From: Candidatus Moraniibacteriota bacterium | GTDB lineage: Bacteria; Patescibacteriota; Minisyncoccia; JAHIHE01; JAGLIN01 | Direction: 5' to 3' | Length of the DNA stretch: 40,357 bases | Assembly: GCA_030638895.1 (NCBI GenBank) | Contig: DAOWDS010000029.1 | Span: 1-40,357, forward strand | Position numbers and translations under genes: made by a program | Notes under the pieces: model-generated | Seen by the model: only the letters and a program-made list of their open reading frames with translations | The model's database searches: none | Told to the model about the DNA's origin: nothing | Shown: positions 5,628-38,400 of the stretch, piece after piece | How positions within the stretch are numbered: position 1 is the first letter of the stretch | Layout of the letters: every line of letters starts with the position of its first letter

Positions 5628-6122
5628 ATGATTATTCTCGGTATTGACCCCGGAACTGCAATTACTGGTTTTGGTGTGATTGAGAGTCAAAATAATAAAT
5701 TAAAAGTTATAGACGCTGGCTGTATCAAAACTGATAAAAATTTAGATATGTCCGAAAGGCTTGATTTGATTGCGAAAAAATTAAAAAATATTATAAAGAA
5801 ATATAAACCCCAAATAATGGCTGTTGAAGAATTATTCTATTTTAAGAATAAGAAAACTGTAATAACAGTTGCGCAAGCCCGAGGGGTTATTTTATTTATG
5901 GGTAAAAATCAAGGAATAGAGATCTGTGAATATACTCCTTTACAGGTTAAACAGGCAGTGGTAGGATATGGTCGTGCTGAGAAAAAACAGGTTCAACAGA
6001 TGGTTAAGTTAATTTTAGGCTTAAAAGAAATTCCTAAACCAGATGACGTAGCAGATGCGCTTGCAGTGGCGGTTTGTTGTGAAAGTAGTTATAAATTTGA
6101 GAAGAAAATTAACAAAAAATAA
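5628..6122 (+). CDS. ruvC: Crossover junction endodeoxyribonuclease RuvC
   Basis: 'MIILGIDPGTAITGFGVIE', 'AVEELFYFKNKKTVITVAQARGV', 'PDDVADALAVAVC'; follows yebC, a common order. Confidence 0.96.
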   Translation: MIILGIDPGTAITGFGVIESQNNKLKVIDAGCIKTDKNLDMSERLDLIAKKLKNIIKKYKPQIMAVEELFYFKNKKTVITVAQARGVILFMGKNQGIEICEYTPLQVKQAVVGYGRAEKKQVQQMVKLILGLKEIPKPDDVADALAVAVCCESSYKFEKKINKK

Positions 6123-6188: not shown

Positions 6189-6836
6189 ATGTCAGAAATA
6201 ATTAATTTAATATTAAGCCAAGGAGTTGATGTTGATACTGTTTATCTAATCCTTACTCTGCCGTTTATCGCGACTCTTATTGCCGCCTTTAGACAATTGA
6301 TTGGGATTAAATCATTTGGTATTTATACTCCGCTTGTTTTAACGTTTGCTTTTTGGGCGGTTGGATTAAAATATGGATTAACTATATTTATAATAATCTT
6401 TTTAACTGGTACTGTAGTTAGATATGTTCTTAAAAATTTCCGTCTTTTATATATGCCTAGAATGGCGCTTGTTTTAACGGTAATTAGTTTGGCAATTCTG
6501 GTTTTACTTACAGTTGGTGGATATCTTCAAAAAACCGGATTGGCTTCAGTGTCCATTTTGCCGATTCTTATCTTAATAACTCTTATAGAAAAGTTTATTT
6601 CAACCCAAGTTGAGAAGGGATTTAGAACGGCGGCATTTCTTTCAGTTGAAACACTTGCTATTTCCATAGCAGGCTACTATTTTATAATCTGGGATGTTTT
6701 TAGGGGTTTAGTTTTAAATCATCCGGAGTATATTTTGTTGTTGTTTGCGGTTAATGTATTTTTAGGTAAATGGACGGGGGTTAGATTAAGCGAATATTTA
6801 AGATTTAGAGAAGTTATAAAAAATATTGATAGATAA
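6189..6836 (+). CDS. Polytopic membrane protein, 7TM domain of the 'inactive transglutaminase fused to 7TM' type (stand-alone)
   Basis: Multiple hydrophobic helices; 'PFIATLIAAFRQLIGIKSFGIYTPLVLTFAF' and 'RFREVIKNIDR' resemble the 7TM half of these proteins; sits directly upstream of the alpha-L-glutamate ligase-like gene as in known loci. Confidence 0.75.
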   Translation: MSEIINLILSQGVDVDTVYLILTLPFIATLIAAFRQLIGIKSFGIYTPLVLTFAFWAVGLKYGLTIFIIIFLTGTVVRYVLKNFRLLYMPRMALVLTVISLAILVLLTVGGYLQKTGLASVSILPILILITLIEKFISTQVEKGFRTAAFLSVETLAISIAGYYFIIWDVFRGLVLNHPEYILLLFAVNVFLGKWTGVRLSEYLRFREVIKNIDR

Positions 6837-6842
6837 AAACAA

Positions 6843-6953
6843 ATTGTTAAATTGCCAAACTGTTAAATTGTTACGCGCGGCATAGCAATTTGTATGGTGT
6901 AATTATGAATATGCGTTATACATAATAATTTAGCAATGTAGTAATTTAACAAT
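6843..6953. repeat. Paired inverted octamer arrays (consensus ATTGYYAA, 4 units each)
   Basis: Forward: ATTGTTAA ATTGCCAA ACTGTTAA ATTGTTAC (6843-6874). Reverse strand: ATTGTTAA ATTACTAC ATTGCTAA ATTATTAT (6953-6922). Confidence 0.75.
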
Positions 6954-6959
6954 AGAACT

Positions 6960-8486
6960 ATGTTTACTTTAATAAAAAATAGCAAAGGTATTCTTGGGAT
7001 GAATGCCAGAAACTTTTCTTATATTAGACCAAACAATTTTCAAGGAGCGATTCGTTTGGCGAATAATAAATTGCGAAGTAAAGAAGTGCTTTTAAAAGCG
7101 GAAGTTCCTATTCCAAAGGTTTATGGTATTATTAAGAATAGACTTGAGCTGGAAATTTTTAAATGGGGCGATTTGCCAAAAACTTTTGTTTTAAAGCCAA
7201 ATCGCGGCAAAGGAGGAGAAGGGATAAAAGTGATTTTTGGACAAAAAAAAGATTTGAGCTGGGTCTCCACACAAGGCAAAACTATCACTATAAAAAATTT
7301 AAAAGACCATATTAGGGACATTTTTGAAGGATTTTATTCTTTTTCCGGAACATCAGACATCGCTTTTTTTGAAGAAAGAATTCAGCTTTTGAAAGTTCTT
7401 AAACCATATTCTTATGAAGGCATTCCTGATGTTAGAGTAATTATTTATAATAAAGTTCCGGTAATGGCGATGCTTCGTCTTCCGACCAGAGAGTCTGGCG
7501 GAAAATCCAATCTGCATTTGGGGGGCGTGGGGCTGGGAGTAGATATTGCTAATGGCGTTACAACAAATGCCATAATGCGCGATCAGCTGATTGAAAAACA
7601 TCCGGACACAAAATTAATTTTAAGCGGAATAAAAATTCCTAATTGGAAAGAAATTTTGGAAATCGCGATTAAATGCCAAGAAGCTTCAGGATTAGGATAT
7701 ATTGGTGTTGATGTTGCAATTGACAGCGGGCGCGGTCCTGTTGTGCTGGAAATAAATGCTCATGCCGGACTTTCAATCCAAATTGCCAATCTTGCGCCGC
7801 TAAAGTACCGTTTGCAAAAAATAAGCGGCTTAAAAGTAAAAAACGAAGCGCGTGGGATTAGAATCGCGCAAGATCTTTTTGGAGGTGAAATTGAAGAAGA
7901 AATTGAAGAAATTTCAGGAAAACAGGTTTTAGGAATTATTGAGGCCATTAAAATTAAACATAAGGTAAAAGAAAATGAAGAAACAAATAAAGACAGAAAA
8001 GATAAATTAAACATAGAAAAACAAGAAGATAAGCCAGAAGAAATGGAATTAAGAGCAAAAATTGATACAGGAGCAGATTTATCTTCAATCGACAAGTCTT
8101 TGGCAAAAAATCTTGGATATGCAGAAATTATAGATGAATTTGATGAAGCGATAAAAAACATTAAAATTGATACCGCTTTAACAAAAGAAATTTTAGATGA
8201 ACAAATTAAAGATAAACTTGAAAAATGGGGAGACGGCATTGATACTGTTATTATTAAATCTAGTCACGGAGCAACTTTTAGGCTTGTTATAAAAATGAAT
8301 ATAACACTTTCTGGCGTGGAAATTATTTCTAAAATGTCCGTCACAGACAGAAGCAATCTCGAATTTCCTATAATTATTGGGAGAAAAAGTTTAGGAAAAT
8401 TTTTAGTTGATCCAAGTAAAAAGTCTAAGGCGATTTTTGGGAAAGAAGTAAACGTGACTAATAATAAAAATAATTTAGAAAAATGA
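6960..8486 (+). CDS. Alpha-L-glutamate ligase-like ATP-grasp protein fused to a C-terminal RimB/retropepsin-like ATP-dependent zinc protease domain
   Basis: N-terminal 'GMNARNFSYIRPNN..NKLRSKEVLLKAEVPIPKVYGII' and 'FVLKPNRGKGGEGIKVI', 'VVLEINAHAGLSIQIAN' (ATP-grasp). C-terminal 'MELRAKIDTGADLSSIDKSLAKNLGY...MSVTDRSNLEFPIIIGRKSLGKFLVDPSK' (DTGA motif and zinc-protease-like C-terminus). Confidence 0.9.
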   Translation: MFTLIKNSKGILGMNARNFSYIRPNNFQGAIRLANNKLRSKEVLLKAEVPIPKVYGIIKNRLELEIFKWGDLPKTFVLKPNRGKGGEGIKVIFGQKKDLSWVSTQGKTITIKNLKDHIRDIFEGFYSFSGTSDIAFFEERIQLLKVLKPYSYEGIPDVRVIIYNKVPVMAMLRLPTRESGGKSNLHLGGVGLGVDIANGVTTNAIMRDQLIEKHPDTKLILSGIKIPNWKEILEIAIKCQEASGLGYIGVDVAIDSGRGPVVLEINAHAGLSIQIANLAPLKYRLQKISGLKVKNEARGIRIAQDLFGGEIEEEIEEISGKQVLGIIEAIKIKHKVKENEETNKDRKDKLNIEKQEDKPEEMELRAKIDTGADLSSIDKSLAKNLGYAEIIDEFDEAIKNIKIDTALTKEILDEQIKDKLEKWGDGIDTVIIKSSHGATFRLVIKMNITLSGVEIISKMSVTDRSNLEFPIIIGRKSLGKFLVDPSKKSKAIFGKEVNVTNNKNNLEK

Positions 8487-9364
8487 AAAAAATTAAGTTT
8501 GCTATAATTGGCGCCAGTGAAACAGAAAATACCAAGAATCTTATTGAAGAAATAAAATTAAGAGGACATTTGGTTTTTTTAATTCAACCTAAAAATTTAG
8601 TTTTTGAGTTTTCTAAAAATAAAAAGTTTAAAATTAAGCAGGGAAATATAAATTTGGATAAGTTGGATATATTTATTTTTAGAGGATATAACATAAATAT
8701 TGTTGTGGCAAAAATTTTGGCTGAAAAATTAATCAGGGATAAAAAGGTGGTTATAGATGAAGTTTTAGGAAAAAGATTTATTCCGAGTAAAATATTTGAA
8801 TGCAGTAAATTTGCCGAATATAATATAAATCATCCTGTGACATTTCAGGCATTGGATATTTCATCTTACAAAATTATTTTGGACAAGGTAACTTTTCCTA
8901 TAATTGTAAAACCATTGTATGGACAAAAGGGGCAAGGTATAATTAAAATAAATAATAAAACTAAAGCTTTGGCATTTTTCAAAAAAAATCCTAGAGGGTA
9001 TTTAGTTCAGGAGTATTTAAAAACAGATAGCGATATTAGAGTTTTTGTTGTTAACAATAAAATTCTTGGCGCTATGAGGAGATTTGTTCTGTCTGGCGAT
9101 TTTAGATCAAATGCGTCATTGGGCACCAAAGTGGAAAAAGTGATACCTACTAAAGAAATGAAAACGATTGCTATTAAAGCGACCAAAGCGATGGGATATG
9201 AAATTGCTGGTGTTGATTTTTTAGAATATAAAAATAAACTGTATGTTTTAGAGGTTAATTCTACTCCTCAGTGGCAAAAGTTTAAAGAGATTACAGGTAT
9301 TAATCCGGCAAAAAATATAGTCAGTTTAGCGTTAAAAAAATATAAAAAAAATAATACAAGTTAA
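8483..9364 (+). CDS. RimK-type ATP-grasp (alpha-L-glutamate) ligase
   Basis: 'FPIIVKPLYGQKGQGIIKI', 'YLVQEYLKTDSDIRVFVVNNKILGAMRR', 'MGYEIAGVDFLEYKNKLYVLEVNSTPQW'; 4-nt overlap with the preceding gene. Confidence 0.93.
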   Translation: MKKIKFAIIGASETENTKNLIEEIKLRGHLVFLIQPKNLVFEFSKNKKFKIKQGNINLDKLDIFIFRGYNINIVVAKILAEKLIRDKKVVIDEVLGKRFIPSKIFECSKFAEYNINHPVTFQALDISSYKIILDKVTFPIIVKPLYGQKGQGIIKINNKTKALAFFKKNPRGYLVQEYLKTDSDIRVFVVNNKILGAMRRFVLSGDFRSNASLGTKVEKVIPTKEMKTIAIKATKAMGYEIAGVDFLEYKNKLYVLEVNSTPQWQKFKEITGINPAKNIVSLALKKYKKNNTS

Positions 9365-9378
9365 CAATTTACATAAAA

Positions 9379-10713
9379 ATGAAAAAAATATTATACTTTA
9401 AAAACTACAAAATTTCTTCTGATTCTATATTATTTAAATACAAGTTTAACAATAAAAGTTATACTGTTGAATTTATTTCGAAAGAATTGCTACAAAATAA
9501 AAGCTTTGATCCTAAAAATGATTATGTTTTAAACAAAGTCATTTGTTATTTAGGTGTAATTTCTAGTTTTAACTTATTTGATTTAGAATATTTTAATGAA
9601 ATAATTGTAGAATGTATGGTATTAAACAAAGAAGAAGGCGATTATTTTTCTAATCTTTCTTTCGATGGCTTAGCTGAATTTAGATATATTAATAAAATAA
9701 ACATAAGTAAAAAAGTAAAATTTTCTTCTATCTGTAGTCAAAGTAATTGTCTATATAAAAAACCAAAACTATTTTTTAATAAAAAAACTATTTTGTTAAA
9801 TGGAGGAGGAAAAGATTCTGCCGTGGCAGCTGAAATGCTAAAATTGATAAAAGAAAATTATAGCTGGTTAACTTTAAATATGAATACTGCTAGAAAAAAT
9901 ATAATTTTAACATCAAAAATTAAAAGTTGCTTTTCATTATCGAGAGTTATAGACAAAAATATTAGAAAAGATAGTAAATACTTGGGTCACAAGCCAGTTA
10001 GCGCTCTCATAGCTTTTATAAGTATTCTTTACGCATATATTTATAAATACTCATATGTAGTTACGGCTAATGAATATTCATCAAATTTTTCTAATTTAAA
10101 AATAAACGATATATCAATAAATCACCAATATACTAAATCTCTAGATTTTGAAAAAAAATTTAATGTTTTTATACGAAACAGATTATTTAAGGGAGTTACA
10201 TATTATAGTGTTTTAAGACCTTTATATGAAATACAAATAACAAAAATATTTTCTTTCTATAGGCAATACTTTCCTCATTTCATAAGTTGTAATATAGGAG
10301 TTAAAGAAAACAAATGGTGTCTTAAATGTCCTAAATGCGCGTTTATTTTTCTTGCTTTAGCGCCTTTTATCTCAATTGCAAATATTAAAAAAATTTGGGG
10401 CTCCAATTTATTTTTAGATAAAAATATTACAGATAATATTTTAAAACTTATCGACAATAGTGCCAAACCATTTGATTGTGTAGGAACCAAAGAAGAATGT
10501 CGACTCGCTCTATATTTATGCGAAAAAAATAAACTTTTAGAAGAAGTTTCGAAAAGTACAAAAAAGGAATTATTTAAATATATTCAAAATTACGATTACG
10601 AAAAAAACTTAAAAAAATATTTACAGACATACAAAAGAGAAAATAATATTCCTAAAATCATTATTCCGAAAGTGGAAAAATTCTGGAAAAAAACACTGGA
10701 AATTAGACAATAA
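9379..10713 (+). CDS. MurL-like protein (UDP-N-acetylmuramoyl-L-alanyl-L-glutamate epimerase family)
   Basis: 'KTILLNGGGKDSAVAAEMLK' (GGGKDS motif), 'NKWCLKCPKCAFIFLALAPF' (CxxCPKC motif) and 'AKPFDCVGTKEECRLALYLC' match recalled MurL signature segments. Confidence 0.78.
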   Translation: MKKILYFKNYKISSDSILFKYKFNNKSYTVEFISKELLQNKSFDPKNDYVLNKVICYLGVISSFNLFDLEYFNEIIVECMVLNKEEGDYFSNLSFDGLAEFRYINKINISKKVKFSSICSQSNCLYKKPKLFFNKKTILLNGGGKDSAVAAEMLKLIKENYSWLTLNMNTARKNIILTSKIKSCFSLSRVIDKNIRKDSKYLGHKPVSALIAFISILYAYIYKYSYVVTANEYSSNFSNLKINDISINHQYTKSLDFEKKFNVFIRNRLFKGVTYYSVLRPLYEIQITKIFSFYRQYFPHFISCNIGVKENKWCLKCPKCAFIFLALAPFISIANIKKIWGSNLFLDKNITDNILKLIDNSAKPFDCVGTKEECRLALYLCEKNKLLEEVSKSTKKELFKYIQNYDYEKNLKKYLQTYKRENNIPKIIIPKVEKFWKKTLEIRQ

Positions 10714-10761
10714 TTATTCTGCTAATATTCTTTGCCTTTTAAGCTTATAATAAAACTTTGT

Positions 10762-12402
10762 ATGAAAAATGAACAGCCAAAATTAGAAATAATAATTTCT
10801 GAAATTAAAAAAGTGGGAGAAGAAAAAGAAGTTGAAGATGCAGTGATTAGGGAAGAGCGTGAGACTTTATCGGAAGTATTAGAAATTCCCGAAGAAGATG
10901 TTAAAAAATTAGAAATAAATATAGAAGAAAAAGAAAAATCTGAAAATAGTAAAATATTATTTGAGTATGCAGAAAAAATTTATGATATTACGAAAGATTA
11001 TAGAGCGGTTTATATATATTTAGATAACACAGATACAAAACTAATAAATATAGAAAAATTGAAAGAAGCTATTAATGATTTAGAAGAAATTCAGGACGAA
11101 GCGCAAAATAGAAATGAGCAAATTGGGAATATCATTAATAAAATAATATTTCCGGAAAAGGCCAAGATTCAACTTCTTTTAGAATTTAAAAACAGCAACT
11201 CAGAAGGAGTTTTTGAAAATGGTAAAATTGCTTACGGAGATATTGACGAAGAATTGTGCGCGAAAGCTCTTGATATTTATAATGATAAATTAGAATTTAT
11301 AAACAGTAAAAAGAATTTATTTAAAGAGATTGATAGTAACAACTCAGAAGAAGCTTTAAAGTATTTAAAATTGGCATATAAACATACTGATGAATTTTCA
11401 ATTGAGAATGATGATGATTGGTACAAAGAAAAATTAGAAGTAATAAAAAAAGAAAGACAGACAGACAGCATAGAAGAGAAACTTAAAAAAAGTAAGTTCA
11501 ACGCTGAAGATATAAAAAATTATTTTGAAATAGCTTTAATAAAGGGAGGGTTGGAAAATGCTGGGTATAAAGTGATTATTGATTCTGTTGCTAAATCTAT
11601 TGGGGTTTATAAGAAACATCCGAAATACGATAGTCCTGTAATTTTAATTCCTGAAAATAGAGAAGTTGACGGGATAAAGCTTCTTGAATTAATAGCTCAT
11701 GAAATAGGCGGGCATATAGCCTCGGGTTTTTACAGCAACAAACAAGGGCTTGGAGCGGTATCTATAGGAAGGGATTGGGAGACCTATAATGAAGGAATTG
11801 CAAAAAAAAATGAGATTGAAATAAAAAAAGAGATTTTAGAAAATTCTTACTTGAATTTTAAAATAAATTCAAGTCCGCTTTATGTCTTAGCTATGGAGAG
11901 AATAAAAAACGGAGGAGATTTTGATGAAACATGCGATTACATTTTTAGCTTGAAAAAGAAAGAACATTTAGCAGAAGGAAATGATAATTTAGAAAACGAA
12001 AGAGAAGCTAAGAAAACAGCGGAAAAAATATGTAACAGGGTATTTAGAGGATTTGATAAAAAAGAAAAAGGGAAATATTTTACGAAAGATTTAGCGTATT
12101 TGGTTGGAGAATCTGGTGTTCGAGAAATGAAAAAAACAGGAGTAGATAAATATTTATATTTGTCCAAAGTAGATCCCAAATTAATTCCAGATTTAATTAA
12201 AATGGGAGTTTATACTTATGAAAAAGGGTTGCAAATGACAAAAGATGTTGCTAAACAAGTTTGGCAAGATAAGGACTGGTTGGCAGATTATATAAAAAAC
12301 AAAAAGTGGTATGAAGAAAATACCCCAGAACATTTAGGACATTGGAATTATAGAGATAAATACATGAATGAGAATAAAACTGGATTGAAAAGCGAGGAAT
12401 AG
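10762..12402 (+). CDS. DUF1704 / MATCAP-like (tyrosine carboxypeptidase-type) zinc metallopeptidase
   Basis: 'LIAHEIGGHIASGFYSNKQGLG...WETYNEGIAKKNE': HExxxH plus downstream EG(I/L)A motif of the family. ORF track starts at TTG 10732; ATG at 10762 (MKNEQPKLE) preferred. Confidence 0.8.
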   Translation: MKNEQPKLEIIISEIKKVGEEKEVEDAVIREERETLSEVLEIPEEDVKKLEINIEEKEKSENSKILFEYAEKIYDITKDYRAVYIYLDNTDTKLINIEKLKEAINDLEEIQDEAQNRNEQIGNIINKIIFPEKAKIQLLLEFKNSNSEGVFENGKIAYGDIDEELCAKALDIYNDKLEFINSKKNLFKEIDSNNSEEALKYLKLAYKHTDEFSIENDDDWYKEKLEVIKKERQTDSIEEKLKKSKFNAEDIKNYFEIALIKGGLENAGYKVIIDSVAKSIGVYKKHPKYDSPVILIPENREVDGIKLLELIAHEIGGHIASGFYSNKQGLGAVSIGRDWETYNEGIAKKNEIEIKKEILENSYLNFKINSSPLYVLAMERIKNGGDFDETCDYIFSLKKKEHLAEGNDNLENEREAKKTAEKICNRVFRGFDKKEKGKYFTKDLAYLVGESGVREMKKTGVDKYLYLSKVDPKLIPDLIKMGVYTYEKGLQMTKDVAKQVWQDKDWLADYIKNKKWYEENTPEHLGHWNYRDKYMNENKTGLKSEE

Positions 12403-12421
12403 AATTTTTCAACAAAAACTT

Positions 12422-13465
12422 ATGATAAAAAATGCACCAAAAAGTATAAAAGCTATTAGCTCAATAATTTTAGCTGAAGAGGCATTAAAAAGAGGAATAA
12501 AGATTAATCATATTAATAGATATCAAAAAAGAATGGCTTTTTTGGAATTGTTGTACAAAAAACATTTTGAATATATAGCTGGTCAGAACGTTTCCCAGAC
12601 ATCTTTCACGGGTAATTATGCCACATCAAATAAAGCATTAACTAAAAGTTTGTTATTAAGAGCAAAGATAAATATTGCGAAAGGAAAATTATTTAGCAAA
12701 GGTGATATTGACAAAGCGCAAAATTTTATAAATAAAATAGGATATCCAATTGTAATTAAAAAGAAAGACGGAACTCATGGAGATTTGGTTTTTGTGGGAA
12801 TAAAAAACAGAAAAATGTGCGACAAAGCAGCCAATTGTATTTTAAAAGAAAATGACGATGTTTTAATAGAGAAAGAATTTAAAGGAAAAGAATATAGAAT
12901 TATAGCAACTAAAAATAAATTTATAGCTGCTACAAATAGAATTCCTGCTAATGTTATCGGAGACGGTATTCATACCATAAGAGAGCTTATTAAGAGTAAA
13001 AATAATGATATTAAACGCGGAAATAGTTTTTTTGAAAATAAACCACTAAGAAAAATAAAAGTGAATAATATTGTGAAACAAAATATAAGAGAGCAAAATA
13101 TGACATTAAATACAATACTTTTTGAAAAGGAAAAAATATATTTAAGAAAAACATCTAACCTGTCAACCGGCGGAGATAGTATTGATGTAACAGACCAGGT
13201 TCATCCGGAAATTAGAAAAATTGCAATTAGGGCTATAAGAGCTATTCCTGGACTTGCCTATGCCGGAATAGATTTAATGACTAACAATAACATTTCAAAA
13301 AAACCAACAAAAAATAGTTATATAATAATTGAAATAAATGCATCTCCTGGAATATTTATGCATCATTTCCCGTATCAAGGAAAATCAAGGAATGTTGCAA
13401 AAGGAATAATTGACATTTTATTTCCAGAAACGAAAGGGAAATATATTGACGTGAAAATTAAATAA
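12422..13465 (+). CDS. Cyanophycin synthetase-like / GshF-like ATP-grasp ligase
   Basis: 'GYPIVIKKKDGTHGDLVFVGI', 'VLIEKEFKGKEYRIIATKNKFIAATNRIPANVIGDGIHTIRELI', 'LRKTSNLSTGGDSIDVTDQVHPE', 'LAYAGIDLM..IIEINASPG'. Confidence 0.88.
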   Translation: MIKNAPKSIKAISSIILAEEALKRGIKINHINRYQKRMAFLELLYKKHFEYIAGQNVSQTSFTGNYATSNKALTKSLLLRAKINIAKGKLFSKGDIDKAQNFINKIGYPIVIKKKDGTHGDLVFVGIKNRKMCDKAANCILKENDDVLIEKEFKGKEYRIIATKNKFIAATNRIPANVIGDGIHTIRELIKSKNNDIKRGNSFFENKPLRKIKVNNIVKQNIREQNMTLNTILFEKEKIYLRKTSNLSTGGDSIDVTDQVHPEIRKIAIRAIRAIPGLAYAGIDLMTNNNISKKPTKNSYIIIEINASPGIFMHHFPYQGKSRNVAKGIIDILFPETKGKYIDVKIK

Positions 13466-13589: not shown

Positions 13590-16055
13590 ATGCTGAAAGC
13601 GCTTAAAATACTTTTTGTGACAACCGATTTATCTCCTTTTTCAAAAGCGGGCGGACTTGGAGACGTTTCTTGCTCTTTGCCGAAAGCGCTTTTAAAAGCG
13701 GGTCTTAATATAAGAATTATTATGCCACGACATGGAGTTATAGATGAAAAGAAACATAATATAAAGCTTATAAAAGATAATTTAAAAGTAAAAATTATAA
13801 AAAATACCGAAATAAATTTCAGAATAAAAAAAGGGAATTTAACTAAGGAGCTGCCAGTTTATTTTATAGACAAATTCAAATATTTTGGAGGAAGAAACAA
13901 AATATATGGATATAAAGACGAAAATCAGCGTTTTATGTTCTTTAATTTTGCAGTTTTTGAAGCAATTAGAAATATGAATAATTGGGTTCCAGACATAATA
14001 CATTGCAATGACTGGCACAATGGATTGATTCCATATCTGCTTAAAACTAAATTTAGCAAAGAAGAAATATTAAAAAAAACAAAAACAATTTTTACGATTC
14101 ATAATCTCACTTTTCAATTAGGAAAAAATTGGTGGGAAATTGATAAGAAAGAGCAGGATGATGGCGTGAGCAAGCTGCCTGATTTTAAGGATAGATATAA
14201 AATTGACAGAATTAATTTTGCAAAAAGAGGGATATTAAGCGCGGATATAATAAACACCGTAAGTGAAAAATATGCTGAAGAGATAATTCAAAAAAAGTTT
14301 GGACAGGACCTTTATAATATATTGTTAGTAAAACATCAAGAAAAGAGATTTTTTGGAATAATAAATGGCATTGATTATAAGGAATATAATCCTCAAACTG
14401 ATCCCGGTCTTTGGATAAACTATGATCATAATTCTCTTCAAAAAAAAGTTATAAATAAAATGAAATTACAGGAAGATTTTGGCCTTGAAATTGATGATGA
14501 TGTTCCGTTAATAGCAATGGCGACTAGGATTACTGAGCAAAAAGGATTTGATTTAATTTTGGAAATTATAGACGCCTTATTGAGGCTTAATATGCAATTA
14601 ATTCTTATTGGCAGCGCAGATTCAGATTACAAAAAAATATTTAAAAAATTAAGCAAAAAAAATCCCAAAAAAGTAGCGACTCATTTAAAGTTTGAAACTA
14701 AAAAAATAACAAGAGTTTATGCGAGTTCCGACATGTTTTTAATGCCATCTCGTTTTGAACCATGCGGGCTGGGGCAGATGATAAGTTTGCGATACGGTTC
14801 TATTCCAATTGTTCGAGAAACGGGAGGACTTTCTGATACAATTACAAATTATAATCCGCGGACAAAAAATGGAAACGGATTTGTTTTTAAAACTTATGAT
14901 CCACAAGACCTTCTTGTTGCGATTGTTAGAGCGCTAGAGACTTATAAATATAAAGAAGATTGGCGAAATCTTGCAAAAAAAGGAATGCAAGAATCTTTTT
15001 CTTGGGAGGTTCCTGCTAAAAAATATAATATACTTTATAAAAAAGCAATTAATTTAAAAATAGATAAAAAATTTATGTATCAAACCATAGAAGATATTAA
15101 TAAAAAAATTAAAGAACTGGCAAAAAAAGAATGTTTTAAAATTATAAAACCCGTTAGTTATTTTATTAAAAAGAAAAAAAATTATTATGCTCACAATGTT
15201 TTAAAAGGCAACAAAAAAATATTTTTAAAAGCTAGAATTACGGCCAATAAAGGTTATATTTTTGGGATTGAAAAAGGAATGAAAATTTCAAAAATAATGA
15301 CTGAAAATAAAAAAATATCAAATAAGGTTAACTTCACGGGATTTTTGGGAGGATCTTTAAAAGAAATTCCAGAATGGTATGTTTATAATTATATTGAAGG
15401 AAATATTTTAGGAGATTTTTATAATATGCCTAAAAAACATGAAAAAGAAGTATATATCAAAAACTCTGTTAAAAATTTGAGAAATCTGCAAAGCGTATCT
15501 AACGAGCTTATAAAAGAAGCAGAAAAAAATGGAGTTATCGAACATATTAAGAAGAGAGGGTATACGGATTATTGTAATACAGTTGAATATTACGAAAAAC
15601 AAAAAGTTGAAGACGGAAAAATTGATTTTGCCAGTGTTTATAAACTGCTTGAAAAAAATAAGAAAGCATTAGATGAAAATTTTGTTATTGCTCATGGTGA
15701 TTTTACTCTTGCTAATCAAATTGTTTCAGACAAAGACGGAAAAGTATATCTTTCTGATTGGGACTCAGTTAGGATTGACAATATTGCGGCAGATTTAACT
15801 CATCTTTGGGTTCAAACATGGAGATATCCAGCTTGGCGCTCAAAACTTCTGCAAGAATTTTTAGGAAGTATTTCTGCAACAGACAAAAATAAATTTAAAG
15901 AAATTTTTAGAATTACAGCCATTGAACAGGCAATGGCGGAAATTAAATGGAATTCAACGGCATGTAAGAAAAAATATAAAAAAGGCGTTATTGACATTTC
16001 AATAAAAACTATCAAAACTGCGTTAGAAGGATTTGAATGGCTGATTGAAATCTAG
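13590..16055 (+). CDS. GT5 glycogen/starch synthase fused to a C-terminal aminoglycoside/choline-phosphotransferase-like (APH) kinase domain
   Basis: N-terminal 'ILFVTTDLSPFSKAGGLGDVSCSLPKAL', 'HCNDWHNGLIPYLL', 'SRFEPCGLGQMISLRYGSIPIVRETGGLSDT' (GlgA). C-terminal 'FVIAHGDFTLANQIVSDKDGKVYLSDWDSVRIDNIAADLTHLW' (APH HGDxxxxN and downstream Asp motif). Confidence 0.92.
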   Translation: MLKALKILFVTTDLSPFSKAGGLGDVSCSLPKALLKAGLNIRIIMPRHGVIDEKKHNIKLIKDNLKVKIIKNTEINFRIKKGNLTKELPVYFIDKFKYFGGRNKIYGYKDENQRFMFFNFAVFEAIRNMNNWVPDIIHCNDWHNGLIPYLLKTKFSKEEILKKTKTIFTIHNLTFQLGKNWWEIDKKEQDDGVSKLPDFKDRYKIDRINFAKRGILSADIINTVSEKYAEEIIQKKFGQDLYNILLVKHQEKRFFGIINGIDYKEYNPQTDPGLWINYDHNSLQKKVINKMKLQEDFGLEIDDDVPLIAMATRITEQKGFDLILEIIDALLRLNMQLILIGSADSDYKKIFKKLSKKNPKKVATHLKFETKKITRVYASSDMFLMPSRFEPCGLGQMISLRYGSIPIVRETGGLSDTITNYNPRTKNGNGFVFKTYDPQDLLVAIVRALETYKYKEDWRNLAKKGMQESFSWEVPAKKYNILYKKAINLKIDKKFMYQTIEDINKKIKELAKKECFKIIKPVSYFIKKKKNYYAHNVLKGNKKIFLKARITANKGYIFGIEKGMKISKIMTENKKISNKVNFTGFLGGSLKEIPEWYVYNYIEGNILGDFYNMPKKHEKEVYIKNSVKNLRNLQSVSNELIKEAEKNGVIEHIKKRGYTDYCNTVEYYEKQKVEDGKIDFASVYKLLEKNKKALDENFVIAHGDFTLANQIVSDKDGKVYLSDWDSVRIDNIAADLTHLWVQTWRYPAWRSKLLQEFLGSISATDKNKFKEIFRITAIEQAMAEIKWNSTACKKKYKKGVIDISIKTIKTALEGFEWLIEI

Positions 16056-28397: not shown

Positions 28398-31385
28398 ATG
28401 CCAATAAGAAAGAAATATAGAGTGAAAAGTTCAAGCGTTAGAAAAAAAGAAGTCGCTAGAAAAAGGCGGACAGGCTTTAGGTTGCCAAGATTTACTAAAA
28501 TAAGGCCAAAAAAGAGATTAATTAAGAAAAGCGCGACTCCGTCTTTGCTTAGAAAGTTGTATAACTGCATAAAATCAAAAAAGAAAAAAAGTGGATTAAA
28601 AAAAACCTATAAAGCGGTTTTAAGACTGGCAATTTTATTTTCAGTTGTTGGGATAATTGGATTGATCGGAGTTTTTATCTATTTTTCAAAAGACATACCA
28701 AATCCGGACAAAATTGTTGATCGTAGCGTCGCGGAGTCTACAAAAATTTACGATCGCACTGGAGAACATCTTTTATATGAGATACATGGCGAAGAGAAAA
28801 GGACAATTGTCGGGCTTGATCAGGTTTCAAAAAATCTTATAAACGCAACGATTGCCACTGAAGACCAGGATTTTTACAAGCATCATGGCGTTGATTTTCG
28901 CGGAATAGCAAGAGCAATATATAAGGACATAAGAAGCGGAGAAAAGCTTCAAGGGGGGTCAACAATAACCCAGCAATTGATAAAAAATTCAATTTTAACT
29001 TCAGAAAGGACTTTTACAAGAAAAATAAAGGAAATAATTTTGGCGATTGAAACTGAACAAAAATTTAGCAAAGATGAAATTCTTGAAATGTATCTAAATC
29101 AAATTCCTTATGGATCTAACGCATATGGCATTGAAGCCGCTTCGCAGACCTTTTTTGAAAAATCTGCTAAAGATCTTGACGTTTCAGAAGCGGCTTTGCT
29201 TGCTGGCCTTCCCAAAGCTACGACTTATTATTCTCCGTATGGCGCGCATCCAGAAGCGCTGAAATCACGCTATAAAAACATCATTAACCAAATGAAGAAT
29301 GAGGGATATATAAGCGAAGAGGAAGCTAAACAAGCAGAAGAAGTTGAAATATTAAAAAAGATAAAACCATTTAGGGAAGATATAAAAGCGCCTCATTTCG
29401 TGATGTATGTTCGCCAGCAGCTTGCTGATGAATTTGGAGAAGAAAAGATTGAAAAAGGAGGGCTTAAAGTTTATACCACGCTTGATTATGATATGCAATT
29501 GATTGCCGAAAATGTTGTCAAAAAGGGGGCTGAGAAAAATTCTCAAAATTATAACGCGCGCAATGCAGCTTTAGTTGCTATTAATCCAAAGTCAGGACAA
29601 ATTTTGTCTATGGTCGGAAGCAAAGATTATTTTAATATGGAAGAAGATGGGAATGTGAATGTTGCAACTTCTAATCGTCAGCCAGGATCGTCTTTTAAGC
29701 CTTTTGTTTATGCTACGGCTTTTGGCAAAGAATACACTCCGGACACTATTCTTTTTGACGTTCAAACTAATTTTGGAAAAGACGGAAGCGGAAAAGACTA
29801 TGTTCCACAAAATTATAATTTTAGTTTTTCAGGACCAGTAACTATGAGATCTGCTCTAGCGCGGTCTTTAAATATTCCCGCTGTAAAAACATTATATTTA
29901 ACTGGAATTAATGATAGTATTCAAACAGCTCATAATTTGGGGATTTCCACTCTTAATAATCCGGAAAATTATGGATTATCACTGGTGCTTGGAACTGGAG
30001 AAGTAAAATTATTAGATATAGTTTCAGCTTATGGAGTTTTTGCAAATGACGGAAAAAGAAATTTTGCTGTTTCTGTTTTAAAAATAGAAGATGCAAATGG
30101 AAATATTTTAAAAGAATTTGAAGCAAATGAAAAACAAGTATTAGATATGGAAGTTGCGAGAAATATAAACAGTATATTATCTGATAATATTGCCAGAGCT
30201 CCGACGTTTGGGTCAGAAAGCAAATTATATCTTGACGAAAGGCCCGTGGCAGCCAAGACTGGGACAACAAGTGATTATAAGGACGGATGGACCGTAGGAT
30301 ATACTCCGAGTTTAGTGGCGGGAGTTTGGGCTGGGAACAATAAAGGCGAAAAAATGAAAAAAGGAGGAGGAATAACGGTAGCCGCTCCTATTTGGAATGA
30401 TTTTATGTATAAGGTTTTAGCGCTTGATTCAATTGAAAATTTTTCTGCTCCCGATAAAATTAAAACTGGAAAAACTGTTTTAGATGGAAATTATAAAAAT
30501 GAAGTAATTGTTAAAATTGACAAGGCTTGCGGAGATAAGCTTGCCAGCGAGCTTACGCCAGAAAATCAAATAGAAAAGAAAACCTATATAGAAGTTCATA
30601 ATATATTAAATTATGTCAAAAAGGACGATCCGCGCGGTGATTATCCTGAAAATCCAAGCAAAGATCCAAATTTTTCAAATTGGGAAGATGCTATTTTGAA
30701 ATGGGCAGCGGAAAATGCTGAAGAAGTGAATGTTAATCTTCCTATGGAAGTTTGTTCAGTAAGAGAAGACGATAAAATGCCAATTTTAAAAATCTCGTCT
30801 CCTCAAAACAACCAGATAATAAAGGCAGGCAAACTAGCCATAAAAGCAGAAGCTTCTACTGTTTTTGGCTTAAAACAGTTGGATTTTTATTTTGATGATG
30901 TTTTAATAGGGGTCGGAAAAACTTCTCCTTATGAGGTTTCTTATAAATTGCCAGCTGGAACTAAAGATGGCATACACACTGTTATAATCAGAGCTTATGA
31001 TAAAATAGACAATTCAGTTCAAAAAAACATATCAGTGATTGTAAGCAATAACAATATATCTTTATATTTAAAGCCCATACTAGACATCGATTTTCCATTT
31101 ATTATGAATGTTGCAACTTCAGGATTAGACGTAGAAAAAGTTTATTTTTATTATCAACTAGACAGCATATATGATGCTGATATGAATTTAATCAAAAAGC
31201 CTGGCTCAAAACAAGAAATAGGATCAGCCAAATTTTCCATTCCAGGCGAAAGCAATCTATATCAGATATTATGGGAAGAAGATAAACAATATTTTATTTC
31301 TGGAAAGTATAAGATTTTTGCTGTAATGGAAGATAAAAACGGAAAAACATACGAAAGCAACAAGAGATTTGTGGAAGTTAAATAG
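28398..31385 (+). CDS. Class A penicillin-binding protein (PBP1A family; GT51 transglycosylase plus transpeptidase plus C-terminal Ig-like domain)
   Basis: 'TIATEDQDFYKHHGVDFRGIARAIYKDIRSGEKLQGGSTITQQLIKNSIL' (GT51), 'RQPGSSFKPFVYATAF' and 'AAKTGTTSDYKDGWTVGYTPSLVAGVWAGN' (transpeptidase). Confidence 0.97.
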   Translation: MPIRKKYRVKSSSVRKKEVARKRRTGFRLPRFTKIRPKKRLIKKSATPSLLRKLYNCIKSKKKKSGLKKTYKAVLRLAILFSVVGIIGLIGVFIYFSKDIPNPDKIVDRSVAESTKIYDRTGEHLLYEIHGEEKRTIVGLDQVSKNLINATIATEDQDFYKHHGVDFRGIARAIYKDIRSGEKLQGGSTITQQLIKNSILTSERTFTRKIKEIILAIETEQKFSKDEILEMYLNQIPYGSNAYGIEAASQTFFEKSAKDLDVSEAALLAGLPKATTYYSPYGAHPEALKSRYKNIINQMKNEGYISEEEAKQAEEVEILKKIKPFREDIKAPHFVMYVRQQLADEFGEEKIEKGGLKVYTTLDYDMQLIAENVVKKGAEKNSQNYNARNAALVAINPKSGQILSMVGSKDYFNMEEDGNVNVATSNRQPGSSFKPFVYATAFGKEYTPDTILFDVQTNFGKDGSGKDYVPQNYNFSFSGPVTMRSALARSLNIPAVKTLYLTGINDSIQTAHNLGISTLNNPENYGLSLVLGTGEVKLLDIVSAYGVFANDGKRNFAVSVLKIEDANGNILKEFEANEKQVLDMEVARNINSILSDNIARAPTFGSESKLYLDERPVAAKTGTTSDYKDGWTVGYTPSLVAGVWAGNNKGEKMKKGGGITVAAPIWNDFMYKVLALDSIENFSAPDKIKTGKTVLDGNYKNEVIVKIDKACGDKLASELTPENQIEKKTYIEVHNILNYVKKDDPRGDYPENPSKDPNFSNWEDAILKWAAENAEEVNVNLPMEVCSVREDDKMPILKISSPQNNQIIKAGKLAIKAEASTVFGLKQLDFYFDDVLIGVGKTSPYEVSYKLPAGTKDGIHTVIIRAYDKIDNSVQKNISVIVSNNNISLYLKPILDIDFPFIMNVATSGLDVEKVYFYYQLDSIYDADMNLIKKPGSKQEIGSAKFSIPGESNLYQILWEEDKQYFISGKYKIFAVMEDKNGKTYESNKRFVEVK

Positions 31386-32419: not shown

Positions 32420-35400
32420 ATGACAAAGAAAATTTTTACAAAAATGCATGATTATTTTCTTCGGAATAAGAAAAGATCAATTGCCATTGTTTTATTCTTG
32501 TTTATCCTATTGGTTAGCGGGATACTTTTTTTAACAAAAGACAGAAGGTCGGATTTTTTAAATCCGCGTTCTGAATACGCGCAGGTCTATTCTATTGTAA
32601 ACGACAAAATCTCTCAAAGCGCGAATATTGCCATTAATCTTCCCGCGAATATGAAAATTAGCAAGGCGGAGGCTCAGAATAGCATTAAATTTTCACCGGA
32701 AATAAAAGGAATATGGATAGAAACAGCAGAAAAGGAAAAAATTATCTTCAAACCGGAAGAAAAACTGAAACTTAACAGATATTATTCAGTTATTTTGGAA
32801 ATCGCGGATAGCTCTATCGGCGGAGATTTTCTCATTGTTGATGATCCGAAAGTTTTGACTGTTTTCCCGAAAGCTAATTCCGAAGCAAGCGAGGATTCAG
32901 AAATTACGGTAATGTTTAATAGGCCGATGGTGCCGATAACAACACTGGATGTTTTGGCGGATTTTGACATTCCCATAGAGATTAGTCCTGCGACGGCAGG
33001 CAAATTTAAATGGATTGGAACAAGAACTGTTCAGTTTGTTGCAGATGAAAGGCTGGCGCGCTCTTCAAACTACACGGTTAAAATAAAATCCGATTTTGTT
33101 TCTATGGACGGATTAAAGATAGGCGATTTTGAGCACAAATTTCAAACAAGAGCTTTGCGATATCTTTCTACTGACAATAGCGTTGTTATTTACAATAGTC
33201 CAATTAGAGTAGCATTTAATCAGCCAGTTGATCTGAAAAAAACAATTAATGAAATTACGCTTAAAAATGTTACCGATAATAATAAACAAATTGATTTTAT
33301 CGCCGAATATGGAACTAAAAGTATTTATAATAAAGAAAATAAAAAATATGAAAATATAACCGACGAAGCTGTAATTTTAATTTATAATAAAAAAGATAGG
33401 CATGGCAGAGGAAAGCTGTGGGATTTTAACAGTAGCTATTATTTTAATATTGAGAAGATTTATCCGCAAGAAGGAGATATTATTCTTGAAGAAGCGCGAC
33501 AGTTGACAATTGCTGTTTCCGGAGAAATTAAGCAAGTCAGCGCTTCTTCGGAAAGGACAAGTTTTTCTTCTTCTGATTTCTTTGATCCGCAGGGAAAACT
33601 ATGGATTGAATTTTATGAAGATATTGATTTGGCAAAAAGCGGGATAAGCGCTGACAAAATGACAGAAATCGGCTACGGGGAAAAGTGCAAAGATGAAAAC
33701 GAGAATTTAAAATTCTCAGGGAGCGTAGAATGTGAAAAAGGGGACGATCAAAAGAGAATTTACCTGACATTTAATTATGGCAAGATCAATAATTTAGATG
33801 CTTTAAAATTAAACATTAACGCAATCGTAAGCAGCAAAGGGTTTAAACTTAACGTTAAGCCGATTATAAAAGATATTAAAATAATTCCTAAATTAAAAAT
33901 ATTAAAAACTATTCCCGAATACAACGAGAGCAATGCCAGTTTAAGTGAATTTATAATTTGTTCTAATAGTCCGTTGACAGTTCCAGCAAAAGAGGATATC
34001 AGCGATTATATTAAAGCTAATCCGGGTTTTGAGTTTAAATATTGGAACAGACCGATAAAAATTACTGAAAATAATGTAAAATATCGCAAATGCCGTGTTA
34101 GCGAGTTTGAAACTAAAATTTCTTATGGATTAATGCCAGAGAATGACTACAGCATAGAAGTTAAAGCCATAGATGATTTTGGAGAAAAGGAAACAATAAA
34201 TAAAATATTTAAAACAGGAAAGATGCCAGAGCGCTATCTTAATTTTCATAATTTTCAAAGGCAATACAGCATTACAACTCCAGACAAAACCAAGCTAACT
34301 TACGCTGTTGAAAATATGGATTACGTTAATTTACATATCTGTAAATTAAAGCCGCAAGATATGCTTTATTATCTAGAGAACAAGCCGTCTTATACAAGCT
34401 CTGCTTATTCAATCGGAAATTGCGAAAAAGTTATCAGCAAGAAAATAGAATTGCAAAAAAAATATTGGGTCAAAAATTATTTTACGGTTGACCTTGAAGA
34501 TCATCTGAAAGATCCTCTGGGGCATTACATCCTGACTTTTTCGCATCCTGATTATAAAACAAGATCAAGATATGACAAAGATAAAAAACAGGTATATGAA
34601 AGAACTTATTTAACCGTGACAAATCTTGGCATTGTGGAAAAAAGAGTTGAGATAAGAAATAGCGGAACTAATCAAGAGATTAATTTAAACAGTGAACAGC
34701 AAGCTAAATTAAAGAATATTTATTGGGTAACTAATTTGAAAAGCGCGAATCCGATTGAAGGAGCGGAAGTTCAGCTTTTTGAAGGTGTTAAAGAAAAATC
34801 TTCAGTCAAGATGAAAAAATTGTCTTCATATGTTACGAATAGATCGGGTATTGTTGAGACGGCGGTCGCTAATAATTTGCATGGAGTTGTTGTTACGAAC
34901 GGAAGCGACAGCGCTTTAATTTCTCGCTACGACAATAAGCTTGGCCATGGAAACATCGCCAGAACCGCCCAAAAAATATATTCATATACGGATCGGCCGA
35001 TTTATAAGCCTGGACAAGAGGTTTATATAAAAGGGCTTTACAGAATAGGATATGACGGCGACTATGAAATTTTTAGGGAGAAAAACATTCCGTTGAAAAT
35101 CTATAATAGCAAGAATGAAGAAATATTAAATCAAGAATTGGAAGTAAATGACTTCGGCACCTTCAACACAAAATTGATTTTAGATACAAAAGCTCCATTG
35201 GGCCGGTACAGGATTGATGTCAAAGGCGTGAACACCTATTTTGAGGTTGAGGAATATGTTCCGGCCTCGTTTAAAGTTGAAGCGCAGATAGATAAAGAAG
35301 AATATATTTCGGGCGATGTTTTTAATATGGAAATTGACGCCAGTTATTATTTTGGAGCGTCTGTTGAGGGTGGAGAGGTTGAATATAGCATTGGAAGCCA

Positions 35401-38400
35401 AAATTATTATTTTGACAAATATAAGGATGAATATTTCAATTTTGGATCGTCGTGGTATTATTGTTACGATTGCAGTTATGGGGATAAATTTATTTTGAGA
35501 AATAAAACCGAATTAGACAGTTCCGGCAAGGCTAAAATATCGCACCAGCTTGATCTGAATAAATTATTTGAAGACCAAGAAGATATAAAAAGCAAAATAT
35601 TTGTTGTTTATCTGACTGTTAAAAATTCCAACGGTCAGGCTGTTTCCGCGCAGAGATCGTTTATTGTCCATAGGGGAGAATATTATCTTGGGCTGAAAAC
35701 TGATAAATACTTTTTGAGTAAAAATGAATCTTTCAAAACCAAAGTAAAATCAATTAATACTGAAGGAAAAGAAATTTCCGTTCAAAACATTAAACTGCAA
35801 ATTAATAAGATAAAATGGGTTCAGAATAAAAGGAAAGAGGTTGACGGCGGATATTATTATAAATGGGAAAAGGAACTGGAATTGATTCAAGAAAAAACAG
35901 TCAGTACCAACCAAAACGGTGATTGGAGCGGAAACTTTTCTTTAGACAGAGAAGGGGAATATGAATTAAAGGCGGTAAGCAGAGATAATAGAGGAAATGT
36001 GATCACAAACAGATATAATATTTATGTTTATGGAGGTGCTCAAGTTGACATTAGAAGAACAAACGACACGGAACTGGAAATAGTTGTTGATAAAAGCAAT
36101 TTAAAGGTAGGCGATGAGGCGAAGATCATTATTAAATCTCCTTATAAAAAGGCTAAAGCGCTGATTAGTGTTGAAAGAGGAAAAGTTTTTAAATATGAAA
36201 TCGTTGATATTGATCAAAATCTTTACGATTATAAATTTAAGGTATTATCAAATTATACTCCTAACTTTTATGTCTCGGTAATTCTGCTTTCCGCGGATTC
36301 AGATCCTGATGTTAAATTCGGGCAAGTTGGATTTAAAGTTGACACAGAGAGGAGGGAATTGGATATTTCTGTCCAGTCTGATAAAAAAACATATTTGCCG
36401 GGAGAAGAAGTAGTATTGAATTTTAATTCAAAAGATTACGCGGGCAATCCCGTGGAAACGGAATTTTCAGTGGCGGTTGCCGATTTGAGCGTTCTGGCGT
36501 TGAAAGGAAACCCAAAGAAAAATCCGCTCGTGTTTTTTTACGGCGGATTTCCTTTGACAATCTCAACTTCCAGCAATTTGGAAAATATTCTTTACGAAGT
36601 TGATATTGCCAGTGAAACTAAGGGCGGCGGCGGAGCGGAGTCAGAGGACCTGGCAAAGAAGAAGAGAGGAATTTTCAAAGATACCGCTTTATGGCAAGCG
36701 GTCGTTAGAACGGACCAGAACGGACAAGCGGAAATAAAATTTACTTTGCCAGATAATTTAACCACTTGGCAAATTGAGTCAATCGGAATCAGCAAGGATA
36801 CAAAATTAGGCGTTGATTATCAGGAATTTATCGCGCGCAAGAATGTAATGCTTGTTCCGCTAAAGCCGCGTTTCATAGTTCCCGGAGATGAATTTTATCT
36901 GGGCGCGAAAATTTTCAATCAGACCGATAAAATGCAAAATTTGAAAGTTGAATTTTCCAGCGGGACATTATCCTTGAGAAATGATCAAAGCAAAAAAAGC
37001 GTTCAAATAGAAGCAAATGAATCAAAAACTGTCTACTTTAATGTCACGGCTGATTCGTCCAAGCAAAATGGATCTCACCGGTTTATTCTGTCCGCTAAAA
37101 ATAGCGCTTACGAAGACACCGTGGAAAACACTATCAAGATAACAAGAAATGACACTTACGAGGCGACAGCGATGGCGGGATACTCAAACGCGGCTCTTGT
37201 CAAAGAATTTGTTTATTTGCCTGAAAATATTGTCGGAGACAAAGGCGGACTGACTGTTCAGAGCAGCGCTACTCTGGCTGTTTTCTTGTCAGACGCCTTA
37301 AATTATTTAATGGCTTATCCTTATGGATGCAGCGAGCAAATTGCCAGCAAGCTTGATTCGATCGCGATCGTTAAAAAGGGATTGAATCTAAAAAATATCG
37401 GCGATAAATTTGAATTGGAAGACATTGAATTTGACGGGCGGAAATGGACAATAGACGAGGTTGTGGAGATCGGACTGGCAAGGATCTATGAAAATCAAAA
37501 ATCTAACGGAGGATTTGCGTATTATCCGGATGGAGATCCGAGCATATATTTAACATTGCATATAACTGATACTCTAAAAGATTTGAAAGACGCGGGATAC
37601 GAGATAAATGATAACAGTTTAAAGCGAGCTTTTGTCTATATTAATAATACGGTGAGTTACGATAAAAATTTGCAGAAAAATAAGGACTTGGTTATTTTGG
37701 CAACTAATTCTTTGCTGGAAATTAGAGATTATGGAAAGATCAATCCCAGCTTGATAAGCTATATAAAAAGACTGAGAAACGACAAGTTGTTTCTTAATGA
37801 ACAAGTTAGCAATACTTCTCTCACTACTTTAGCTGTGATGCTAAGTGATAATGAAAATATTTTTGGCAAGGAATACAAAAATGAAGTGTTTAATATTCTG
37901 GAAAATAGAATTGACATTGATTCTCGCGGAGCATTCCTGCCATCCGGCAAAAATGTGATTTGGCAATATTATGGAACGCAAACCAAAGATACCGCTTTAT
38001 TGCTTAAAGCTTTGTCAAAAGACGAGAGGGATAATGAGATTCTAGACAAGATCCTGCGCTGGCTGTTGCGAAGCCGTGGCAAAGACGGATCGTGGGGTTC
38101 AACAAATAATACTATTTCTGTTATTGACGCGATGACCGACTATCTTATTTGGCAAAGGGAAACTGAGTCTGAATTTACTTTAAAAGTTCTGCTTGATAGC
38201 AAGGAAAAACAGTCTTTTGATTATAACGCGCAGACGATTCTTAATCAAAACAGTTTAGAAATTTCAGTAAGCGAATTGGGACTTGGATCTTTCAGTTCGC
38301 TTATCTTTGAAAAGACAAACCATAATAAACTAAATAATAACTTCTATTACGACATTTCTTTGAAATATTTTTTGCCTGTTGATACAATTCCTCCGCGAGA

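Follow-up and report, generated by a model that had tools for sequence, protein, structure and literature searches.

The rlo operon of Pseudomonas aeruginosa comprises RloA, RloB and RloC. RloA is retropepsin-like and cleaves runs of at least eight glutamates (Glu); loss of the RloA peptidases is rescued by deleting rloB or rloC. In Pseudomonas, the operon has effects on osmotic tolerance, on shape and on resistance to antibiotics (PMC12239564). Here we analyse a cluster of six genes in a contig of 40,357 nucleotides (nt) from a Candidatus Moraniibacteriota bacterium (DAOWDS010000029.1, analysed at full length and referred to below as the window). Judged from its sequence, the core of this cluster is a variant of the rlo operon, and the product of the cluster is probably a short acidic peptide, made at the cell envelope and trimmed by two unrelated proteases. 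An elaborated rlo-type module for writing and erasing peptides is the reading towards which we lean. A sequence-only reading of the same DNA knew of no description of this exact combination; the core, at least, is already contained in the published operon.

Core genes and the rlo operon

All six open reading frames (ORFs) of the cluster were found where the sequence-only reading had placed them, consecutively and on the + strand. Most are as tightly packed as it had claimed: from RloC/A onward, adjoining ORFs first overlap by 4 nt and are then separated by 14, 18 and 19 nt, the exception being the 123 nt between RloB and RloC/A. Domains were assigned by Pfam and NCBIfam profile searches against curated cut-offs, which upheld the family assignments of the six genes; the matches of the MurL-like and MATCAP-like proteins are weak against these cut-offs, but motifs back both of them, as do comparisons of profile or fold.

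The first gene (6189..6836, +) encodes an RloB-like membrane protein of 215 residues, which consists of the seven-transmembrane (7TM) part only. It matches PF14402 (7TM_transglut; 8.5e-29, 101 bits) and the C-terminal half alone of NF052267 (positions 313-507 of 508, 4.5e-20), and hydropathy analysis gave several hydrophobic stretches. The RloB of another Patescibacterium (L281:2281-3819) has a PKD domain in place of the transglutaminase domain.

The second gene, RloC/A (6960..8486, +), encodes an RloC-like ATP-grasp (residues ~7-292) fused to an RloA/RimB-like retropepsin domain (~350-490). The ATP-grasp part matches PF14397 (2e-70) and TIGR02291 (9e-87, 291 bits against a cut-off of 314) and carries the metal-site motif EINAHAGL; the peptidase part matches PF05618 (7e-11, 42.6 bits) and RloA3 (5e-11). 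What had been read as a RimB zinc protease is instead a retropepsin-like aspartic peptidase, with the motif KIDTGADLSS (DTGA at residue 369). Among relatives, 32 of the 33 full-length RloC/A ORFs have the D[TS]GA motif. RloC/A also aligns with the solved structures 9g58/9g59 at DRS..P..IG. Hydropathy analysis of RloC/A found no hydrophobic segment, and there is no signal peptide. The window thus resembles the Pseudomonas operon in bringing together an RloC-type ATP-grasp, an RloB-type 7TM protein and an RloA-type retropepsin. It differs in that RloC and the peptidase form one protein, which has no signal peptide, whereas Pseudomonas RloA is secreted; in that RloB lacks the inactive transglutaminase domain; and in the addition of two ATP-grasps, a MATCAP and a MurL-like protein.

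The neighbourhood of the core was surveyed in metagenome-type genomes: 115 relatives of the same class, 15 family genomes among them, and 384 genomes sampled across the Patescibacterial phylum. RloC/A occurs in 35 of the 115 class relatives, every one of the 15 family genomes included; across the phylum, RloC was found in 117 of the 384 genomes. Rlo-type systems, with changing ligases and often a PBP1 after RloC, recur in ~30% of the genomes sampled from this phylum, about whose envelopes little is known. Among the 35 class relatives, RloC/A is preceded nearly always by RloB, mostly after RuvC and YebC, and RuvC is the immediate upstream neighbour of RloB in most; the window has ruvC at 5628..6122 (+), a locus marker that lies outside the proposed function. 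Downstream of RloC/A there is a variable cassette of RimK-like, YheCD-like, cyanophycin-like, ATP-grasp_3 and ATP-grasp_4 ligases, also with FemAB-like transferases (PF13480) and between one and three copies of MATCAP; PBP1 lies downstream of the core in 10 class loci. Variable as they are, the accessory genes mostly encode ATP-grasps or FemAB-like transferases, and this content, with PBP1, we count in favour of a module.

Linkage of MATCAP-like peptidases to RloC

In eukaryotes, MATCAP/TMCP enzymes take off Glu residues, both C-terminal ones and those added post-translationally (PMC10499314). The fifth gene of the cluster (10732..12402, +) encodes a MATCAP/QEGLA-family metallocarboxypeptidase-like protein, which matches PF08014 (6e-8, 32.5 bits against a cut-off of 27) and has HEIGGH at residue 323 followed by NEGIA. 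The single sequence found no true relatives in a sequence search of the PDB; a profile built from MATCAP relatives matched the human KIAA0895L structures 7z5g/7z6s (6e-19). Like the tubulin carboxypeptidases KIAA0895L and KIAA0895 (PF08014/QEGLA; PMC10499314), it has the HExxxH and EG metal ligands of a family known for Glu trimming. Unlike them, it is bacterial, with no tubulin, has a helical N-terminal extension, and belongs to a group that in Patescibacteria is linked or fused to RloC.

This linkage is extensive. MATCAP sits in an rlo-type cluster in 12 of the 12 class relatives that have it. Phylum-wide, it was found in 84 of the 384 genomes and together with RloC in 69 (Fisher p 1e-29, relatedness not corrected for). 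The two genes lie within 20 kb of each other in 63 of those 84, at a median of 1.4 kb and in 25 families by hand count of table labels. In ~35 genomes RloC and MATCAP share one reading frame of 670-1040 residues. Pfam confirmed PF14397 and PF08014, with no PF05618, in five of these single ORFs, and all seven of the frames read for motifs lack DTGA and have HExxxH and EG(L/I)A intact. It follows that the RloC ATP-grasp is fused to either a retropepsin or a MATCAP. MATCAP accordingly looks, from sequence comparison, like an alternative eraser of the RloC product. Given the activities of its eukaryotic relatives, the simplest reading is that retropepsin and MATCAP both erase that product. The sequence-only reading had expected DUF1704 (MATCAP), MurL and ATP-grasp genes to recur together across Patescibacteria. 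That expectation was borne out for MATCAP and the ATP-grasps and failed for MurL, which accompanies RloC in this arrangement in one of the 30 genomes that have both.

These data also bear on whether the six genes might be mere neighbours without a common function. Gene content after RloC/A does differ between genera, as such a reading would predict, but linkage of MATCAP to RloC in so many families, their shared reading frames, and the same-strand packing with gaps below 20 nt make it very improbable. It is contradicted for RloB, RloC/A and MATCAP; the contradiction does not extend to MurL.

Two observations outside the phylum lend what we count as independent support. On plasmids of the Proteobacteria Mesorhizobium and Roseateles, QEGLA genes are flanked by an N-formylglutamate amidohydrolase and an ATP-grasp glutathione synthetase. 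In Photobacterium damselae, a QEGLA gene is ~27-fold up at low salinity (PMC10308900), which matches the hypo-osmotic role of Rlo. The Patescibacterial fusions offer strong gene-fusion evidence that MATCAP-family carboxypeptidases act on the RloC product. An envelope pathway of bacteria is thereby connected with a family of tubulin-tail trimmers discovered only recently, and C-terminally trimmed acidic peptides would be the product to seek.

In four loci (L066:8660-11530, L071:11665-14499, L072:3-2114 and L068:5765-7441), RloC/A carries a MATCAP-like domain lacking HExxxH, beside separate MATCAP copies that have the motif; the fused domain is a possible pseudo-peptidase. In a Legionella adelaidensis plasmid record (L303), a QEGLA/MATCAP gene is directly followed by the glutamate racemase gene murI.

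Accessory ligases and the MurL-like protein

Two further ATP-grasps accompany RloC/A in the window. The first is a RimK-family ligase (8483..9364, +) that matches TIGR00768 (rimK_fam) at 1e-47, above the cut-off; its best solved relatives are the alpha-L-glutamate ligases 7qyr/4iwx, and it has no membrane segments. The second (12422..13465, +) is a stand-alone ATP-grasp of 347 residues. It matches only the ATP-grasp part of TIGR02068 (6.5e-88; positions 161-479 of 862) and has the solved relatives 3ln7 and 7txv. It keeps the ATP-grasp of cyanophycin synthetase CphA and GshAB, with an EINASPGIFMH region, and differs from CphA in lacking the N-terminal and Mur-ligase-like domains. Elsewhere (L299:5408-8173), RloC ATP-grasp, retropepsin and a second ATP-grasp form one 921-residue protein.

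The pairing of a RimK-family ligase with a RimB-like aspartic peptidase, of a type that cuts glutamates, recalls the RimK/RimB system. Neither protein has membrane segments, and the cluster might accordingly add and remove Glu on a protein of the cytoplasm, for instance ribosomal protein S6. The S6 of the window genome (contig C50; L298:1988-2719) has a long charged C-terminal extension of ~130 residues, rich in Lys and Glu, but its C-terminal end (...LEDLEDKLDEILEDSMI) has no terminal glutamates; ending in ILEDSMI, the tail is a poor fit as a RimK target. Furthermore, the ligase fused to the peptidase is of the RloC type, a 7TM protein adjoins it in nearly all relatives, and the PBP1 and FemAB-like transferases of sister clusters point to the envelope. 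We consider an S6-type system distinctly unlikely.

The variable ATP-grasp sets after the core, some with a weak match to an L-amino-acid-ligase C-terminal domain, suggest another possibility, that the cassette makes a small secreted or storage peptide, an ATP-grasp natural product for which MATCAP and MurL would be maturation enzymes. An epimerase would suit such maturation. Against this, neither a precursor gene nor a dedicated exporter was seen in the locus, and a core present in so large a share of the phylum suits housekeeping better than a natural product; we judge this alternative unlikely.

The fourth gene (9379..10713, +) encodes a divergent MurL-family, PP-loop, ATP-dependent epimerase-like protein. 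It matches NF041275 (MurL) at 1e-59 and 202 bits, against an equivalog cut-off of 700 in a model built on Xanthomonadales, and a sequence search of the PDB found no true relatives. Of the 74 columns conserved across 112 other MurLs it keeps 63, with GGGKDS, NHQ, SCN and WCxxCPKC intact, but Y66 and K68, present in all 112, are replaced by L and D. Its branch is the longest in the tree (2.5 changes per site; median 0.47), and this length makes its placement unsure. The AlphaFold model (predicted local distance difference test, pLDDT, 88; predicted template modelling score, pTM, 0.90) predicts a fold resembling PP-loop ATP pyrophosphatases such as QatC and QueC. Such a fold would be consistent with the published activation of substrate by MurL with formation of adenosine monophosphate (AMP) (PMC8788868, PMC5808125).

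MurL was found in 63 of the 384 phylum genomes and in 80 named loci of Patescibacteria, Bacillota, Bacteroidota and Campylobacterota, and MurD adjoins or is fused to nearly all MurLs with a readable neighbourhood. In the window, its neighbours are the RimK-like ligase and MATCAP, and the genome's MurD match lies on contig C8. The family member L075 has the order RloC/A-RimK-GlgA, into which the window inserts MurL, MATCAP and the CphA-like gene between RimK and GlgA. An assembly chimera behind this insertion is unlikely, the flanks RloC/A-RimK and GlgA keeping the L075 order, although the MurL-like gene has the lowest third-position G+C content (GC3, 0.171) of the genes compared. In comparison with the MurD2-MurL alternative peptidoglycan pathway (PMC8788868), the protein retains membership of the MurL family, with an ATP-binding PP-loop and cysteine motifs; it lacks an adjacent MurD, has lost the SYWK motif and sits on the very long branch.

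These features may indicate a repurposed peptide epimerase. A MurL serving peptidoglycan synthesis by the D-Glu route, rather than a peptide tag, is a serious contender, to which we give roughly one chance in three. MurL with MurD provides that route in many other Patescibacteria; the window genome has MurD, the window has PBP1, and neither MurI nor an Aminotran_4 enzyme was found in the genome, which is 87% complete. This absence says little about the source of D-Glu, because relatives without MurL mostly lack both enzymes too: MurL and full MurI matches are absent from all 14 family relatives, and Aminotran_4 was present in only four of the 12 searched. Also against a peptidoglycan role are the position of MurD on a different contig, where nearly every other MurL has it adjoining or fused, the loss of the otherwise invariant Y66 and K68, and the branch length. 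Our tentative alternative is that a MurL-family epimerase left peptidoglycan synthesis and inverts the terminal residue of the RloC/ATP-grasp peptide, a D-residue cap then governing trimming by two erasers, one of them related to tubulin-tail carboxypeptidases. If real, this would be the first case in the survey of a MurL-family epimerase working without MurD.

Twenty-nine loci (e.g. L130, L139, L206 and L233) have ORFs above 650 residues that carry MurL; these are common in Patescibacteria and most likely MurL-MurD fusions. Weak partial MurL matches (residues ~210-440) in ORFs of 465-571 residues in six genomes (G201, G253, G261, G429, G245 and G378) are possibly a distant MurL-like family.

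Proposed pathway and flanking genes

The module may work as follows. RloC and the two further ATP-grasps would add amino acids stepwise in the cytoplasm, most likely Glu or similar acidic residues, to an acceptor bound to the membrane or the envelope, and the RloB 7TM protein would be their partner in the membrane. Cuts within acidic runs would be made by the retropepsin domain of RloC/A, and the MATCAP-type metallocarboxypeptidase would remove residues from the C-terminal end. In the window genome, a repurposed MurL would form an AMP ester at the terminal carboxylate at the expense of ATP and, with the carboxylate so activated, may invert the terminal residue to D, which may cap the tag against trimming. 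The 7TM protein, the PBP1 and FemAB-like neighbours and the rlo phenotypes suggest the envelope location; the residue added, the acceptor, the direction of transport and the MurL substrate are those that we infer to be the most plausible.

Several points weigh against this proposal. ATP-grasp sequences do not reveal amino-acid preference. The retropepsin, in contrast to Pseudomonas RloA, has no signal peptide, so that erasing would be cytoplasmic in this bacterium. The co-occurrence statistics for MATCAP and RloC ignore relatedness, and, as HExxxH is missing from some of the family's MATCAP-like domains that are joined to RloC/A, not every copy need be an active trimmer. Finally, among the 30 sampled genomes with both genes, MurL stands together with RloC only in the window genome; where the two share a contig elsewhere, they are >150 kb apart. 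Of the original idea of writing, editing and erasing a tag, the pairing of writers (ATP-grasps) with erasers (retropepsin and MATCAP) is thus upheld by linkage and fusions, while stereo-inversion rests on one genome and on sequence divergence.

PADLOC gave no defence-system match. At 13590-16055, the window encodes a glycogen/starch synthase fused to an APH-like phosphotransferase domain. Farther downstream lie PBP1, a transglycosylase-transpeptidase with Big_7 (28398-31385), and then an alpha-2-macroglobulin of 2148 residues (32420-38866).

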